A stretch of DNA of 64,000 nt from Clostridia bacterium. Lineage in GTDB: Bacteria; Bacillota; Clostridia; UBA1381. The translations under genes were made by a program, and so were the position numbers. The notes under the pieces are model-generated. The model ran no database searches and was not told where the DNA came from. It saw only the letters and a program-made list of their open reading frames with translations. This document shows positions 4,307 through 64,000 of the stretch, in pieces (position 1 is the stretch's first letter; each line of letters begins with the position of its first letter). The DNA is taken from contig JAFZMQ010000029.1 in assembly GCA_017551095.1 (NCBI GenBank), positions 1-64,000 on the forward strand, written 5' to 3'.

Positions 4307-5490
4307 AGCCTGAAATAATCAAACAACTGTCCGAAGTCAACCGACGCAATAGTTCTGTTTTCATAATTCTGGAAGATGTTATGATAACCTTGTTGAATTT
4401 GCTCGGAGTTTATGCCGTATTTTATCGACATATATGCTTCGAGATATGCGGACAGGTGGTCGCAACCCCGTATAAGTTCACCGTCAATAGCGGAAAACTC
4501 ATCTTTATTATATCTTTCGTTTATTTCGTTTGAGGAAACCTTTAAAAGCTTTCCGTCTATGTAAATTTTAGAGGCAAATTCGTCCTGAATGAAAAATTCC
4601 AGCTCTTTCCTGATATTTTCCGATACAAGCGGATATATTTCCTTTTTCATCTGTTCGCCCTCAATATCCTTTATAATGCTGTCAAGTCCCTCAACAGAAG
4701 ATTTTATCGGCGAAACAATGTCCCTCGTCAAGACCTCGGGAATATCGTGGAAAAGACCGCCCAAAAAGTTATTTATAAGCCGTTTTTTACACGCATTACA
4801 TTCGAGCGAAGTAAAATATGACATTATCGCAACTACCATCATATGCCCCATAACCGAGGTTTGCGGCATTCTCACTGCTCTTGACCAGCGTTGCTGATAC
4901 CTGAGTTTTCCCATTAAGGACAGGAATTTTTGCAGGTTTATATCGGTTGCAAACTTAGAAAAGCCGTCAAAGGTATTACATTCGGAAAGCCCCTTTTCGA
5001 CGCCCTCTTTAACCTGCTCTATATCATAGGTTTTGCGGTTTTGCGGATAGATTACCTCAAATTCCCAATGCGTTGCATAGTAATGTGCCGCTTTTAAAAT
5101 CTTTTTTTCCTTTTGGGCATACTCGCTATCGGTGAAATACCGGCACATTTTCTCATAAAAGCCGCCCTTTAAATCGAGGGTTTTCGCTTTCAGCTCGTTT
5201 AATACCCACTCGTTTATCTGCGGTCCTTTTTCCTTCATAAGCTGGTGATATACGGGAGGCTTTATATCTGTCAGCATAATGCGGTGCAAAAACTCAAATA
5301 TACCGCCCTCGATTAGAAGGAGCATATCAAAATTCTCATCACCCTCGCATTTGCCCAGAATATAGGCATAAACCATTTTATGTGCCTGTTTATCCAGCTC
5401 GGAAAAGCCGTTATGCGGTCTTATATGGTCATTCCAACGCTGGATTGACGCCGCATCATGTATGAGTGAAATTAAAGATTTTCTTATCAT
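4303..5490 (-). CDS. HD-domain phosphohydrolase-like protein (YfbR-like)
   Basis: 395-residue soluble protein with an HD domain in the second half. A conserved histidine in SVMGHMMVVA and the HD pair in GGLFHDIPEVLTRD match the metal-binding layout of YfbR-type HD phosphohydrolases. The N-terminal half, which also contains histidines, is unassigned. The substrate cannot be told; YfbR proteins hydrolyse deoxynucleoside monophosphates. It is the first gene of the HD-recX-rimO-pgsA-ttcA run, has a good promoter in front (5515-5544) and an AGGAGG site 7 bp before its ATG. Confidence 0.82.
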   Translation of the reverse strand: MIRKSLISLIHDAASIQRWNDHIRPHNGFSELDKQAHKMVYAYILGKCEGDENFDMLLLIEGGIFEFLHRIMLTDIKPPVYHQLMKEKGPQINEWVLNELKAKTLDLKGGFYEKMCRYFTDSEYAQKEKKILKAAHYYATHWEFEVIYPQNRKTYDIEQVKEGVEKGLSECNTFDGFSKFATDINLQKFLSLMGKLRYQQRWSRAVRMPQTSVMGHMMVVAIMSYFTSLECNACKKRLINNFLGGLFHDIPEVLTRDIVSPIKSSVEGLDSIIKDIEGEQMKKEIYPLVSENIRKELEFFIQDEFASKIYIDGKLLKVSSNEINERYNKDEFSAIDGELIRGCDHLSAYLEAYMSIKYGINSEQIQQGYHNIFQNYENRTIASVDFGQLFDYFRL

Positions 5491-5514
5491 TTTCTCGCCT
5501 CCTGATTAAGAATT

Positions 5515-5544
5515 ATTATATCACAAAAATCCTTTAAAGGTCAA
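5515..5544 (-). promoter_or_regulatory. Sigma-A-type promoter for the HD-recX-rimO operon
   Basis: On the minus strand TTGACC is followed 18 bp later by TATAAT, about 25 bp before the HD-gene start. It is the only strong promoter-like pair ahead of this operon. Confidence 0.65.
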
Positions 5545-5604
5545 TAGCAATTATCTGCTTGTCTTTTTTTTATTTATCCTGTGGGAACGGATAAGAATAA
5601 TGAC

Positions 5605-5631
5605 ACAAATTCTATATCGGCACATATTCTA
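5605..5631 (+). promoter_or_regulatory. Possible sigma-K/sigma-E-like promoter
   Basis: AC at 5605-5606 is followed after 16 bp by CATATTCTA, which fits the mother-cell sigma-K pattern AC-N16/17-CATAnnnTA. It lies about 45 bp before the cysteine-rich gene at 5674. No convincing sigma-A pair was seen. The match is short and could be chance. Confidence 0.3.
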
Positions 5632-5673
5632 TAACAGGGGCTAACCCATAATTCATTGAAAGGAAGTTTGTAT

Positions 5674-6495
5674 ATGAACGAAAAAACTTGCGGAGCCGGA
5701 AACGGCGGTTTTAAAGAGGCCGTTTGCATACATACCGATAAAGTTTACGACAGTTGCCGTGACAAAGACTGTCTTGAAAATATACGGGTGTATCTTACTG
5801 CCGACGGTCAGTGCGTTGTTGACAGAGCTATAAATGTAAAATGCACAAAGGCAGAAATAATATGGGTTTTTTCCGATATAGAACCTGTGCCATTTAACCG
5901 TGGTTTTTATTCGGTTGACCTTAAATATTTCTTCAAAATAACCCTTGCCGTATTTACAGGGCTCGGAAGACCTACCGAGGTAGAAGGACTTGCAACTTTT
6001 GACAAAAAGGTTATACTTTTCGGCAGCGAAGGAAATGCAAAGGTGTTCGCATCAAAGTATAAGCAGGACGCTTTTGACCCGCAGATGTGGAAAAAGACAA
6101 ATATGCCGTCTGCCGTTGTTGAGGTTGTTGACCCGATAGCTTTGGGTGCAAAGGTTTTGGACGTAAACGACAAGTGCTGCTGTGATGACGATTTTGATTT
6201 GGCAAGTATTCCCGAATCGGTAAGCCGTGTTTTTGACGACAACCTGATTTTAGGCGGAGAGCAAAAACGCGTCTTCGTTTCAATCGGAATCTTCTCAATA
6301 ATCCGCTTGGAACGCAGAGTAATGCTCTTAATCCCTGCATACGATTTCTGTATTCCGCAAAAAGAATGTGTCGGTGCGACCGACGATAATCCCTGCGATT
6401 TATTCGACAGGATTTCCTTCCCGGTTGACGAATTTTTCCCGCCCGAAAGAAGTAATTTCGAGGAAAATTCGGACGATACCGGTTGCGGTTGCTGA
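5674..6495 (+). CDS. Conserved clostridial cysteine-rich protein of unknown function
   Basis: 273 residues from ATG 5674, chosen because AAAGGAAG lies 7 bp upstream; an in-frame methionine 18 bp earlier is inside the leader. No transmembrane segment or signal peptide is visible, so it is probably cytoplasmic or spore-associated. There are about 14 cysteines, including a CCC run near residue 170 and a GCGC terminus. The middle (WVFSDIEPVPFNRGFYSVDL) resembles a family I recall from clostridial spore formers, but I cannot name a domain. It stands alone, facing ftsZ across a shared terminator. A spore-coat role is only a guess, based on cysteine content and the possible mother-cell promoter. Confidence 0.75.
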   Translation: MNEKTCGAGNGGFKEAVCIHTDKVYDSCRDKDCLENIRVYLTADGQCVVDRAINVKCTKAEIIWVFSDIEPVPFNRGFYSVDLKYFFKITLAVFTGLGRPTEVEGLATFDKKVILFGSEGNAKVFASKYKQDAFDPQMWKKTNMPSAVVEVVDPIALGAKVLDVNDKCCCDDDFDLASIPESVSRVFDDNLILGGEQKRVFVSIGIFSIIRLERRVMLLIPAYDFCIPQKECVGATDDNPCDLFDRISFPVDEFFPPERSNFEENSDDTGCGC

Positions 6496-6506
6496 CCAAA
6501 ACAACA

Positions 6507-6543
6507 AAAAAAGCAGAAATGAACAACTCATTTCTGCTTTTTT
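6507..6543. terminator. Bidirectional terminator between the cysteine-rich gene and ftsZ
   Basis: A perfect 16-bp stem (AAAAAAGCAGAAATGA and its complement) around ACAAC, with A and T runs on both sides, so it can stop transcription from both converging genes. Confidence 0.9.
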
Positions 6544-6554
6544 TATTTTAATTT

Positions 6555-7712
6555 TTACTCGTCTTTTGTCTTGAAAAATGACGGAACATTTACGCTGTCC
6601 ATACCCTTTTTCAAGGTTCTTGAAAAGATGGCGTCGTCATCATTTACAGGTGAGAAAGTCGGCGTTTTTGAGCCGAAATCGGTAGTTTTCGGCATACCCG
6701 GTATAATCGGCTCGGATTTTACGCCTCTCTTGTTTTTAGCGTTAAGTCCTGTTGCGATTAAGGTTACCTTTATCTCGTCCTTCATATTCTCGTCAACGGC
6801 AGTACCTACGATTATTGTTGCGTCCTGAGATACCATCTCACGCACAATTGAGGAAACTTCGCCCATATCAACAAGAGAGAACTCTGTTCCGCCTGTGATA
6901 TTCAAAAGCACATTGTGTGCACCTGCTATACTTGTTTCGAGAAGCGGAGATTCGATAGCCGACCTTACTGCGTCTTGTGCGGCATTTTCGCCCTTGCCGA
7001 TACCGATACCCATATGTGCAACGCCTGAATCACGCATAACCGTGCTTACATCAGCAAAGTCACAGCTTATGATACCGTTCTGAGCAATAACCTCGATAAT
7101 TCCCTCAACGCCCTGTCTTAAAACTTCATCAGCAAGACGGAAAGAGTCGGTTATTGAAATCTTTTTATCAGCAGTTTTTAAAAGCAAATCATTAGGAATT
7201 GTAACGATTGCGTCAACATTTGCGGCCAGGCTCTCAATGCCTTGCTCAGCATTTCTTGCTCTTTGCGGACCTTCAAAAAAGAATGGCTTTGTTACAACTG
7301 CAACGGTAAGTATTCCCATATCTTTTGCAAGTTTAGCGATAACGGGTGCAGCACCTGTACCTGTTCCGCCGCCCATACCTGCTGTTATAAATACCATTTC
7401 GGTATTTTCCAAAAGCTCTTTAATTGCATTTTCCGTTTCTTCGGCAGCCTTTTGACCGATTTCAGGCTTAGCACCTGCACCGAGTCCCTGAGTGAGTCTT
7501 GCACCTATTTGAAGTGCGATAGGTGCTTTAACGGTTTTCAGTTGCTGCAAGTCTGTATTTACAGCAATAAACTCCGCTTTTGCAACATTTGCCTCAATCA
7601 TACGGTCAACAGCGTTGTTTCCGCCGCCGCCGACGCCTATAACTTTAATTCTTGCACCGTCTGTCGGCTGTGCAACAGGGGTTTCATTAGTACGCTCTAT
7701 ATTGTTATCCAT
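6555..7712 (-). CDS. ftsZ: Cell division protein FtsZ
   Basis: 385-residue tubulin-like GTPase that forms the division ring. GGGGNNAVDRMI lies near residue 30 and the GTP-binding signature GGGTGTGAAPV near residue 115. A variable linker leads to a C-terminal peptide (VNVPSFFKTKDE) in the place of the usual partner-binding tail. The start is well placed behind AAGGAGG. It follows murA and ftsQ but has its own promoter in the 113-bp gap. Confidence 0.98.
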   Translation of the reverse strand: MDNNIERTNETPVAQPTDGARIKVIGVGGGGNNAVDRMIEANVAKAEFIAVNTDLQQLKTVKAPIALQIGARLTQGLGAGAKPEIGQKAAEETENAIKELLENTEMVFITAGMGGGTGTGAAPVIAKLAKDMGILTVAVVTKPFFFEGPQRARNAEQGIESLAANVDAIVTIPNDLLLKTADKKISITDSFRLADEVLRQGVEGIIEVIAQNGIISCDFADVSTVMRDSGVAHMGIGIGKGENAAQDAVRSAIESPLLETSIAGAHNVLLNITGGTEFSLVDMGEVSSIVREMVSQDATIIVGTAVDENMKDEIKVTLIATGLNAKNKRGVKSEPIIPGMPKTTDFGSKTPTFSPVNDDDAIFSRTLKKGMDSVNVPSFFKTKDE

Positions 7713-60742: not shown

Positions 60743-61957
60743 TTAACTCCTTACAACAAGCCCCGTTCTCCGTACCGAAAATTCCACTTTTACATCTATT
60801 TGTGCGGTTTTGTACCGTTCTTTCCAATTATACGCTTCAAAATCACCGATAGTTTTAAATTTTCGCTTAGCAACGCTCCCAAACCCGACAATATCCGTTC
60901 CGAGCATTTTTGTTTCCTCTAAAAATTCCATAGCCTGACGCGTTATTTCCGCCGCCGCCACCTCCGAAAATGCGTCAAGCTCATTCTCTATAATCCCTTT
61001 TGTCGAGCCTTGGGTTATTTCCGATTCAAGAAAGAGCGTTATTTCTATTTTGGGCGTTTTCGAGCTTGTATCCACCCGTATTTTCGGGCGTTTTTTCTGC
61101 ATCTGCATTACCGTTACGGGCGTTTCGTCACCAAAATTGTAGGAAACATAACTGCTTTGATATTCGCCCGTTAAAATATTAAAAATTTCGGTTTTAATGT
61201 CGCCGATTTCTGCAATTTTTTTATCTCCGTCAAACACCGCCATTCCCGCGACCTGTATTTCGCTGCTGCCCGTTTCTATTTCACCTGCCGTGTAGTCCCC
61301 GACTTCGTACTGATAGCCGGAATCGGCATATTCAGGCTCTTTTTCCTTTTTCATTGCCGCACATATCGGCACAACCGCACCCTTTTCATCACTGCTGAAA
61401 AAGAGAAAAAAATCCCTGCTCATATTCTGCGGAATGAATCCCGAATAATCATTTTCAAAAATCATTGTGTAATACCGCACAGGATTAACCTCGGTTTTCG
61501 GATTTACCGCCTCCAAAAACTCCTTTGCCGTTCCCTTGCATACCGCAAAATATATGTTCGGGCGTATTTCTACGCTTCGGTTTATCGTTTCCAAAAACTC
61601 CGAAACTCCCTTTTTTGCCACTTCGTCCGAAAAAACTATCAGCTTTGTGTGTGAAAGGACAAATTTTTTGCTTATGATATGGTTTGCTATATTTATGGCA
61701 GGATATATATCGGGCGCTAAAACCGAGATGTTTTCTATGCTTTCCTCACCGCCCTTGCCGCCTGATTCGTTTGAGCCGCCGCTTATTTTGTCGGGGTTTG
61801 CAAACTGCAAGGTTATGTTATAGCCTTTTTCTTCGTCCTTTGGCATATCTATTCCTATTGCTACAACATAGCCGAGTGTTTCTGGCTCCTGGGCGTCTTT
61901 ACAACTTGCAAAGCAGACAAGAATTAAAACTATGACCGCTATTTTTAAAAACTTCAT
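60743..61957 (-). CDS. gerC: Germination receptor subunit GerC
   Basis: 404-residue lipoprotein of the Ger(x)C family. The lipobox CFASCKDA is at the N-terminus, followed by GYVVAIGIDMPKDEE and three domains ending in WKERYKTAQIDVKVEFSVRRTG (IDVKVEFSVRRTG). It is the membrane-anchored C subunit of a nutrient receptor in the spore inner membrane. Overlaps gerB by 4 bp. Confidence 0.94.
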   Translation of the reverse strand: MKFLKIAVIVLILVCFASCKDAQEPETLGYVVAIGIDMPKDEEKGYNITLQFANPDKISGGSNESGGKGGEESIENISVLAPDIYPAINIANHIISKKFVLSHTKLIVFSDEVAKKGVSEFLETINRSVEIRPNIYFAVCKGTAKEFLEAVNPKTEVNPVRYYTMIFENDYSGFIPQNMSRDFFLFFSSDEKGAVVPICAAMKKEKEPEYADSGYQYEVGDYTAGEIETGSSEIQVAGMAVFDGDKKIAEIGDIKTEIFNILTGEYQSSYVSYNFGDETPVTVMQMQKKRPKIRVDTSSKTPKIEITLFLESEITQGSTKGIIENELDAFSEVAAAEITRQAMEFLEETKMLGTDIVGFGSVAKRKFKTIGDFEAYNWKERYKTAQIDVKVEFSVRRTGLVVRS

Positions 61958-63045
61958 TTTTTCGCCTTTCCTGTCGGTTTCTTCATATATAATAATGGGA
62001 TGATTATCGGCAAAATATATACTGTCGGTATTGTCGCCATATCTGCGATTCTGCTGAATTTAAGCACCTTTGTAATAGATATAGGCTCTGCCGCAATAAG
62101 CGTTAATATCGCAATCACCCCGTATGATATGGCATTTCTGTCCTTTAAATCAAAAGCTTTTGCAACAGTTTCGCAAATCAGGAAAATATATATTGATGAA
62201 TACAAAAGCTGGGATATTTCCCATATGAATTCAAAAAATGCCTCAAACCGCTGAAAATACTCTCCTGCACGAATCATTTTTGATAGCTGATAAACGGGCA
62301 AAAGATACTCTTTTGAAAGCGGATACGCATAGCAAAGCACATAACAAAGGCAGATAAAAAACATGGTAAGTGACGCTATTAAAAGGGCTTTTCTTCCGCT
62401 TTTTTTAGGAATTCCGATATCTTTAAGATGCGGAAGAAGCAGGTTTATTGCGATTATATCACCAAAACAGGAAAGGTTTTTAATGCCGCCCGTCAATATG
62501 TTTTTTGTACCGTTTCCCAAAACCGGAAAAAGATTGTTGAAGTTATAGGATTTGTATAGGAAGAAAACAATAATGCCTAAAAACGCAAGGCAAACAGGGA
62601 AGAAAATCGCATTTACTGTTGCAATTGCAGAAATTCCCGGTTTTTGTGCGATAGCTATTGTTACGGAAAGTAGAATTAAAATGTATTCTATCTCCGTTCT
62701 TGGCAGTAAAATGAGCTTTACCGACTCGGAAAACATTCTGATTTCTGTCGCATAATTTAAAGAAAGCGCAAAAACCACAAGCAGCGAAACTGCGATTTTA
62801 AGCGGTTTTCCGCCAACTTTTGCAGACAAATCTATTATTGATTTTCTGCCCGATATCCGATATGTTAAAAAGGATATTTCCATTAACGCCCATGCAAAAA
62901 GTGCCATATATATGACCTCAATCCACGCTGCGTTCCCGCTTGTTTCAACGATTGTCCTGGGAAACGCAAAAATTGCCTTTACGCTGAGCAAATTAGCGAT
63001 TATGAGCGTCATTTCCTTTTCGTTTATAGCCTCATTTTTAAACAT
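61954..63045 (-). CDS. gerB: Germination receptor subunit GerB
   Basis: 363 residues with about ten membrane helices, GerAB/ArcD/ProY family of the APC superfamily. The B subunit binds the germinant amino acid or sugar in other species. Features: NEKEMTLIIANLLSVKAIF, FPRTIVETSGNAAW. It is 51 bp after the gerA stop, and this gap contains the parS-like site. Confidence 0.94.
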   Translation of the reverse strand: MFKNEAINEKEMTLIIANLLSVKAIFAFPRTIVETSGNAAWIEVIYMALFAWALMEISFLTYRISGRKSIIDLSAKVGGKPLKIAVSLLVVFALSLNYATEIRMFSESVKLILLPRTEIEYILILLSVTIAIAQKPGISAIATVNAIFFPVCLAFLGIIVFFLYKSYNFNNLFPVLGNGTKNILTGGIKNLSCFGDIIAINLLLPHLKDIGIPKKSGRKALLIASLTMFFICLCYVLCYAYPLSKEYLLPVYQLSKMIRAGEYFQRFEAFFEFIWEISQLLYSSIYIFLICETVAKAFDLKDRNAISYGVIAILTLIAAEPISITKVLKFSRIADMATIPTVYILPIIIPLLYMKKPTGKAKK

Positions 63046-63079
63046 TTTTGGCTTTTCTCCTTTAAAAATTGTCGTTTAT

Positions 63080-63095
63080 TGTTTCACGTGAAACA
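63080..63095. other. parS-like ParB-binding site
   Basis: Perfect palindrome TGTTTCACGTGAAACA, the consensus bacterial parS sequence. It lies in the gap between gerA and gerB. ParB/Spo0J spreads from such sites to load SMC and segregate the origin region. parA and parB are not in the window. Confidence 0.92.
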
Positions 63096-63096
63096 T

Positions 63097-64000
63097 TTAT
63101 TTCCCGTTTTGCCATTTTTTGCTCACTTTGTCACTTCTTTTCGGCTTTTTCGTTTTTAAGTATTCCGGCCGCCGTTCCGTTTTCCATACAGGCGGCACAA
63201 AAAGGGCATTTTTTAAAAGCTCATTTCCCGGCAAGGGCGACAAAAACGGGATCCCGAAGCTCGTACTTCCTGCTATCAGGACGGCATAGGTGAATATTCC
63301 CAAGGCTATTCCAAAAAAACCGAAAGATGCTCCAATCAAGACAAAAAGCAGTTTTAAAATGCGATAACTCCAACTTAAAGAATAGTCCGCCGTCGCAAAA
63401 GATCCTATACCGGTGAGAGAAATTATGATAATCATAATAGGGCTTACTATCTTTGCAGACACCGCCGCCTGCCCCAATATAAGACCACCAACGATTCCCA
63501 AAACCGAGCCTATGGGGTTTGGCATTCTTATTCCTGCCTCGCGTATCATTTCAAAGGAAAAGTCCATTAACAACAGTTCAATAACGCTTGGAAAAGGCAC
63601 ATTTTGCCTTGATGCACTTATTGCATACAGAAGATATGTGGGAAGCATTTCCGAGTGATATAGCGTTATTGCTAAAAATACACCCGGCAGCAATACAGAA
63701 ATTAGTGCCGCAACAAGTCGCAGTACCCGTGACATATTTGCAAAATTTGTTCTTAAATACGCATCAGACGCACCGTGCATCATCTCATAAGCATTTGTCG
63801 GCAAAATCAACGCTCGCGAGCTTCCGCTCAAAATTATTGCAACACGCCCCTCGGAAATCGCCCGCGCCACTCTGTCCGGGCGTTCGGTCGCAAGAATATG
63901 CCCCGTTATCATTAGAGGGTTTTCCTCTATCAGCATTGAAATTTCTTCTATTGAAATTACATAATCAACCGAGATTCCGCTTATTCTACGCCTTATTTCC
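63097..64000 (-). CDS. gerA: Germination receptor subunit GerA (5' end beyond the window)
   Basis: About 301 codons of the C-terminal part are visible; the frame remains open to position 64000, so the start is outside. The visible part has the end of the soluble domain (GHILATERPDRVARAISEGRVAII) and then five membrane helices with VPFPSVIELLLMDFSFEMIREAGIRMP (FEMIREAGIRMP). The C-terminal tail is basic. GerA subunits form the oligomeric ion channel of the receptor. First of the visible gerA-gerB-gerC-small protein order. Confidence 0.94.
   Translation of the reverse strand, partial: EIRRRISGISVDYVISIEEISMLIEENPLMITGHILATERPDRVARAISEGRVAIILSGSSRALILPTNAYEMMHGASDAYLRTNFANMSRVLRLVAALISVLLPGVFLAITLYHSEMLPTYLLYAISASRQNVPFPSVIELLLMDFSFEMIREAGIRMPNPIGSVLGIVGGLILGQAAVSAKIVSPIMIIIISLTGIGSFATADYSLSWSYRILKLLFVLIGASFGFFGIALGIFTYAVLIAGSTSFGIPFLSPLPGNELLKNALFVPPVWKTERRPEYLKTKKPKRSDKVSKKWQNGK

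Follow-up and report, generated by a model that had tools for sequence, protein, structure and literature searches.

The presence of a perfect parS-type palindrome between two spore germination genes raises the question of whether it belongs to the chromosome segregation machinery or acts on the operon in which it lies. In the window (the whole stretch of 64,000 bases that was analysed), a pattern scan located TGTTTCACGTGAAACA at positions 63080-63095 (site 1, no strand assigned), a perfect palindrome that agrees with the 16-bp parS consensus, TGTTNCACGTGAAACA in PMC7022226, at 16 of 16 positions, as the preliminary description of this DNA had reported. The short gerA-gerB gap in which that description placed it measures 51 bases (63046-63096, minus strand) and also contains the gerB ribosome-binding site. 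Both genes are on the minus strand, with the gerA stop codon at 63097-63099 and the gerB ATG at 63045; site 1 begins one base past the stop codon and occupies the 5' part of the gap in the sense of the transcript. Perfect matches are expected 2.3e-5 times per 64 kb from base composition and 1.5e-6 times under an order-3 Markov model (4.9e-4 and 3.2e-5, respectively, for the whole assembly). No further match with up to 3 mismatches occurs in the window, and the assembly (1.37 Mb) contains exactly two parS at 2 mismatches or fewer, against none for a reversed-pattern control. At 3 mismatches four extra places appear in the assembly, compared with 11 in the control, and these represent background. 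The two sites against zero in the control, together with the tiny expected counts, rule out a chance match.

The flanking genes constitute a GerA-type germinant receptor operon, as judged from their gerA-gerB-gerC order and Pfam domain matches. The 3' part of gerA (63097-63999, minus strand; PF03323, E 4e-97) is cut by the window edge; the whole gene reaches contig position 64716 and encodes 539 amino acids (full ORF at 5098-6717 of stretch L003). It is followed by gerB, encoding a GerB-type spore germination permease (61954-63045, minus strand; PF03845, E 4e-36; TIGR00912 above cut-off), and by gerC, encoding a lipoprotein-type GerAC (60743-61957, minus strand; PF25198 and PF05504). The GerA gene of this operon is the only one in the assembly. 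Upstream of gerA and beyond the window (L003:6717-6805), a GAATA element followed by a GGnnAnAnTA-like element is conserved in the genus alignment; this arrangement resembles forespore sigma-factor promoters.

The window covers positions 1 to 64,000 of a contig of 108,786 bases, in an assembly of 41 contigs that is 80.7% complete, so that further parS sites may be missing from it. Continuing the window numbering past 64,000, the second parS (site 2, also perfect) was found at 64788-64803, 1,708 bases from site 1, between gerA and the divergently oriented parA (64865-65632). The latter starts 1,770 bases from site 1 and is directly followed by parB (65637-66485), the divergent parAB operon thus spanning 64865-66485; after parB comes a gene that is presumably serS, named from its sequence (67018-68283), which is present in relatives too. 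Within the genus, the gerA-parA intergenic region is conserved around site 2 and around the parA promoter (TTTACT-16-TATAAT) in the alignment. Site 1 had been described as not near parAB. This is incorrect, and the error arose because the window edge cuts through gerA and hides both site 2 and parAB; with this artefact corrected, the locus becomes an ordinary origin-proximal ParABS cluster.

Two proteins with a ParB_N domain are encoded in the assembly, as is SMC. The ParB adjacent to parA carries R/S/N/G at the four specificity positions defined in PMC7383237, where the R and the G are described as absolutely conserved among ParB orthologues, and its closest solved structures are Spo0J/ParB chains. 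A cognate ParB with parS-type specificity residues is thus encoded in the same genome as the two sites. The second paralogue (G000 contig C35, about 7119-7394, L122:6990-7880) has Q/K/R/R at these positions and lies beside a gene that, from its sequence, we take to be rsmG-like. Its closest solved structures are Noc, and it scores 307.2 with the Noc model, for which the cut-off is 315. The NBS 14-mer has no match in the assembly at 1 mismatch or fewer. Noc as the owner of the 63080 site was rejected on the basis of the motif, which is parS, and of the specificity residues of both paralogues; although a Noc-like protein is encoded here, the site is a parS and not an NBS.

Several markers place the locus near the predicted replication origin. 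The dnaA gene, whose location bears on the suggestion of the preliminary description that the site marks the origin region, is at about 81.8-83.1 kb of the same contig, roughly 19 kb from site 1, and the minimum of the contig cumulative GC skew is at 87,938, about 25 kb from it. The densest group of DnaA boxes on the contig (three perfect boxes and one with a single mismatch in 290 bases; 68410-68699, L003:10411-10700) is found just past serS, 5.3 kb from site 1 and about 13 kb from dnaA. Of the 23 family loci whose sequence extends 400 bases or more past serS, 18 carry at least three DnaA boxes within 700 bases downstream of that gene, a density seen in 2.7% of 700-base stretches picked at random from the loci; the cluster is absent on the serS side in the other 5 and in both order-level loci counted (18/25 overall). 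These data suggest that oriC is probably about 5.3 kb from site 1, apart from dnaA; against this position stand the GC-skew minimum, which is 19 kb from the cluster, and the 5 of 23 family loci that lack it. In one relative (G024), a dense DnaA-box cluster occurs beyond gerC (L145:968-1243), with none within the 167 bases read on the serS side. With origin markers 5-25 kb away, the sequence agrees with an origin-region assignment for the site, and neither of the situations that would speak against it, a genome lacking ParB or a site near the terminus, is seen at the sequence level.

Site 1 therefore very probably belongs to a pair of origin-proximal parS sites that serve a normal chromosomal ParABS-SMC system, a reading that draws on the identity of the site, its neighbourhood, the genes for ParB, SMC and DnaA, and its conservation in relatives. 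From what is known of ParABS systems, ParB would bind both sites, load as a CTP clamp and spread over the neighbouring DNA; ParA would move ParB and ParB would recruit SMC, such that the nearby origin would be segregated first. On this reading, a site occurs inside the ger operon because gerABC and parAB face each other head-to-head next to the probable origin across the family, and because 16 bases fit in the short gaps between the ger genes without any protein change.

The occurrence of parS was analysed in 61 genomes, 37 of the family of the window (its own included) and 24 at the order level, and sites with at most 1 mismatch were detected in 52 of them. Forty stretches were read and gerABC, parAB, serS and parS were mapped in them, the order level being represented by 4 of its 24 genomes (G042, G051, G054 and G055). 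In 31 of the 37 family genomes gerA occurs beside parS, and all 31 loci carry at least one parS in or beside the operon. Twenty of them, among which are the 9 loci of the genus, have a site in the gerA-gerB gap; four (G010, G022, G025 and G033) have one between gerB and gerC; and in 7 (G013, G014, G015, G024, G027, G028 and G034) parS lies solely outside the operon, where the intergenic region has 2-3 sites. Comparison of the gaps among relatives, proposed in the preliminary description, thus shows that the position of the site relative to the ger genes is not fixed. On a GerA tree, obtained by a quick search from this protein alone and with SH-aLRT support, position must have changed at least five times, and placement between gerB and gerC occurs on two separate branches; the position labels were taken from the locus maps.

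Unlike position, the number of sites is conserved. Every locus with recognisable gerA, gerB, gerC and parA (25 of 25) contains two or more parS, and in each of the 9 genomes of the genus a pair of sites spaced by 1.7 kb brackets gerA. A separate search of 27 family genomes (26 that are at least 90% complete plus that of the window, partly overlapping with the earlier set) recovered 2-3 sites in 24, the exceptions being G017 (none) and G018 and G061 (one each). The gaps of relatives have little in common besides parS and the gerB ribosome-binding site; parS is preserved with 0-1 mismatch in the 20 gap loci while the surrounding sequence has diverged and gap length ranges from 29 to 175 bases (for parS-bearing gaps in which the gerB start could be placed). 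No parS lies within any recognised gene in the 31 loci. In two order-level genomes (G042 and G051, two sites each) the sites flank parAB and no ger genes were found there.

The 31-locus count omits six family genomes. Five of these have no parS at 1 mismatch or fewer; in four (G009, G017, G020 and G036) no close parA was detected (no hit at all in G020, and in the others none stronger than E 9e-14), which suggests that the locus is probably missing or was left out of the assembly, and in G023 parA is present and a stretch of 2,361 bases around it has no site at up to 3 mismatches. The sixth, G019, is rearranged or split, gerA not being beside parS, and one parS there falls in a gerC-like match (L141:8116).

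This combination of a conserved number with a flexible position, confined to gaps and to the same side of parA, is better accounted for by an origin-proximal ParB/SMC loading cluster than by a ger-specific switch, and the placement in the ger operon is a conserved family arrangement for which a role specific to germination is conceivable but improbable. A purely interchangeable role by itself, on the other hand, leaves the operon-internal site of 24 of the 31 loci unexplained. An operator, through which ParB in or spreading along the operon would lower or time ger expression and tie the amount of germinant receptor to the state of the origin or of ParB, would suit the recurrent gerA-gerB location with the 4 additional gerB-gerC cases, as well as the repeated changes of position on the GerA tree, and it has precedents in S. 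pneumoniae, where comCDE is 5 kb from a parS, and in P. aeruginosa (PA0011/PA0013), both as reviewed in PMC7022226. It is nevertheless improbable, given that 7 of the 31 loci have no operon-internal parS, that number and not position is kept and that site 2, being nearer to both divergent promoters, would be better suited to such a function. In B. subtilis, moreover, native Spo0J is reported not to silence parS-adjacent genes, its loss leaving the expression of parS neighbours unchanged (PMC7022226 and, similarly, PMC7333895). The related proposal of the preliminary description, that ParB forms a nucleoprotein block within the germination operon, does not find support in the sequence comparisons, since the position varies while the number stays at 2-3, the operon itself lacks parS in 7 of the 31 loci and the zone that ParB would occupy would also extend over parAB and serS.

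Two further explanations were weighed against the segregation reading, and both are less probable still. Descent alone could have left site 1 where it is, redundant or neutral today, in view of the family-wide conservation of gene order and of the fact that a single parA-adjacent site might suffice; this is very doubtful, as the 16 bases are held at 0-1 mismatch in 20 loci amid diverged gaps and at least two sites are retained in every one of the 25 fully recognisable loci. Least credible is a role of the palindrome at the RNA level, as a gerA-gerB hairpin by which the stability of the mRNA or the translation of gerB would be tuned: the transcript is able to form a 6-pair hairpin directly upstream of the gerB ribosome-binding site, yet gap folding in the three species tested is about that of shuffled sequences and not markedly better (z -0.15, -1.29 and -0.42), on which ground the hairpin was rejected, and the motif is also present between gerA and parA and, in relatives of the order, beside parB. 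A more speculative extension of the segregation reading, which we regard as unlikely although less so than these rivals, is suggested by the forespore-promoter-like elements upstream of gerA: a forespore-type operon, silent during growth, could be kept, in this family, by parAB and the origin as a transcription-free landing ground for ParB. If so, parS would shift among gaps and stay on one side of parA, and segregation and germination genes would be linked by layout. In a stronger form of this idea, ParB bound to the operon may also set the level of the germinant receptor in the forespore.

The system resembles Soj/Spo0J/parS of B. subtilis, the ParABS of Firmicutes, in the same 16-bp palindrome, a parS-type ParB with a GERRWRA motif, an adjacent parA, an encoded SMC and a location near the origin and dnaA. 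It differs in that its two sites are 1.7 kb apart, whereas those of B. subtilis are spread across about 0.75 Mb (PMC8357415), and in that one of them is inside a gerABC operon divergent from parAB. Proximity of parS to an unrelated gene set is shared with the S. pneumoniae site by comCDE and with the intergenic parS3 and parS4 of P. aeruginosa; for these, effects of ParB or parS on neighbour expression are reported in PMC7022226, whereas the position within the present operon is variable among relatives. Among the literature listings examined, no paper described a parS within a ger operon. Because gerABC, parAB and serS are linked across the family and parS occupies gaps between the ger genes, the arrangement offers a natural test of whether parS neighbourhoods are selected for low transcription during growth.

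Among 80 named ParB loci, ger genes adjoin parAB in five (L012-L016), at least three of which equal contigs of G001, G002 and G004 in length and so are not independent. Many of the Clostridia MAG loci in this set (L017-L047) have parAB and no parS at 1 mismatch or fewer in the stretch read; their sites may lie in another place or belong to a variant type. Isolated copies of the variant TGTTGCACGTGAAACA, on either strand and away from parAB, occur at L161:3522 (G015), L162:443 (G028) and L163:2764 (G014).
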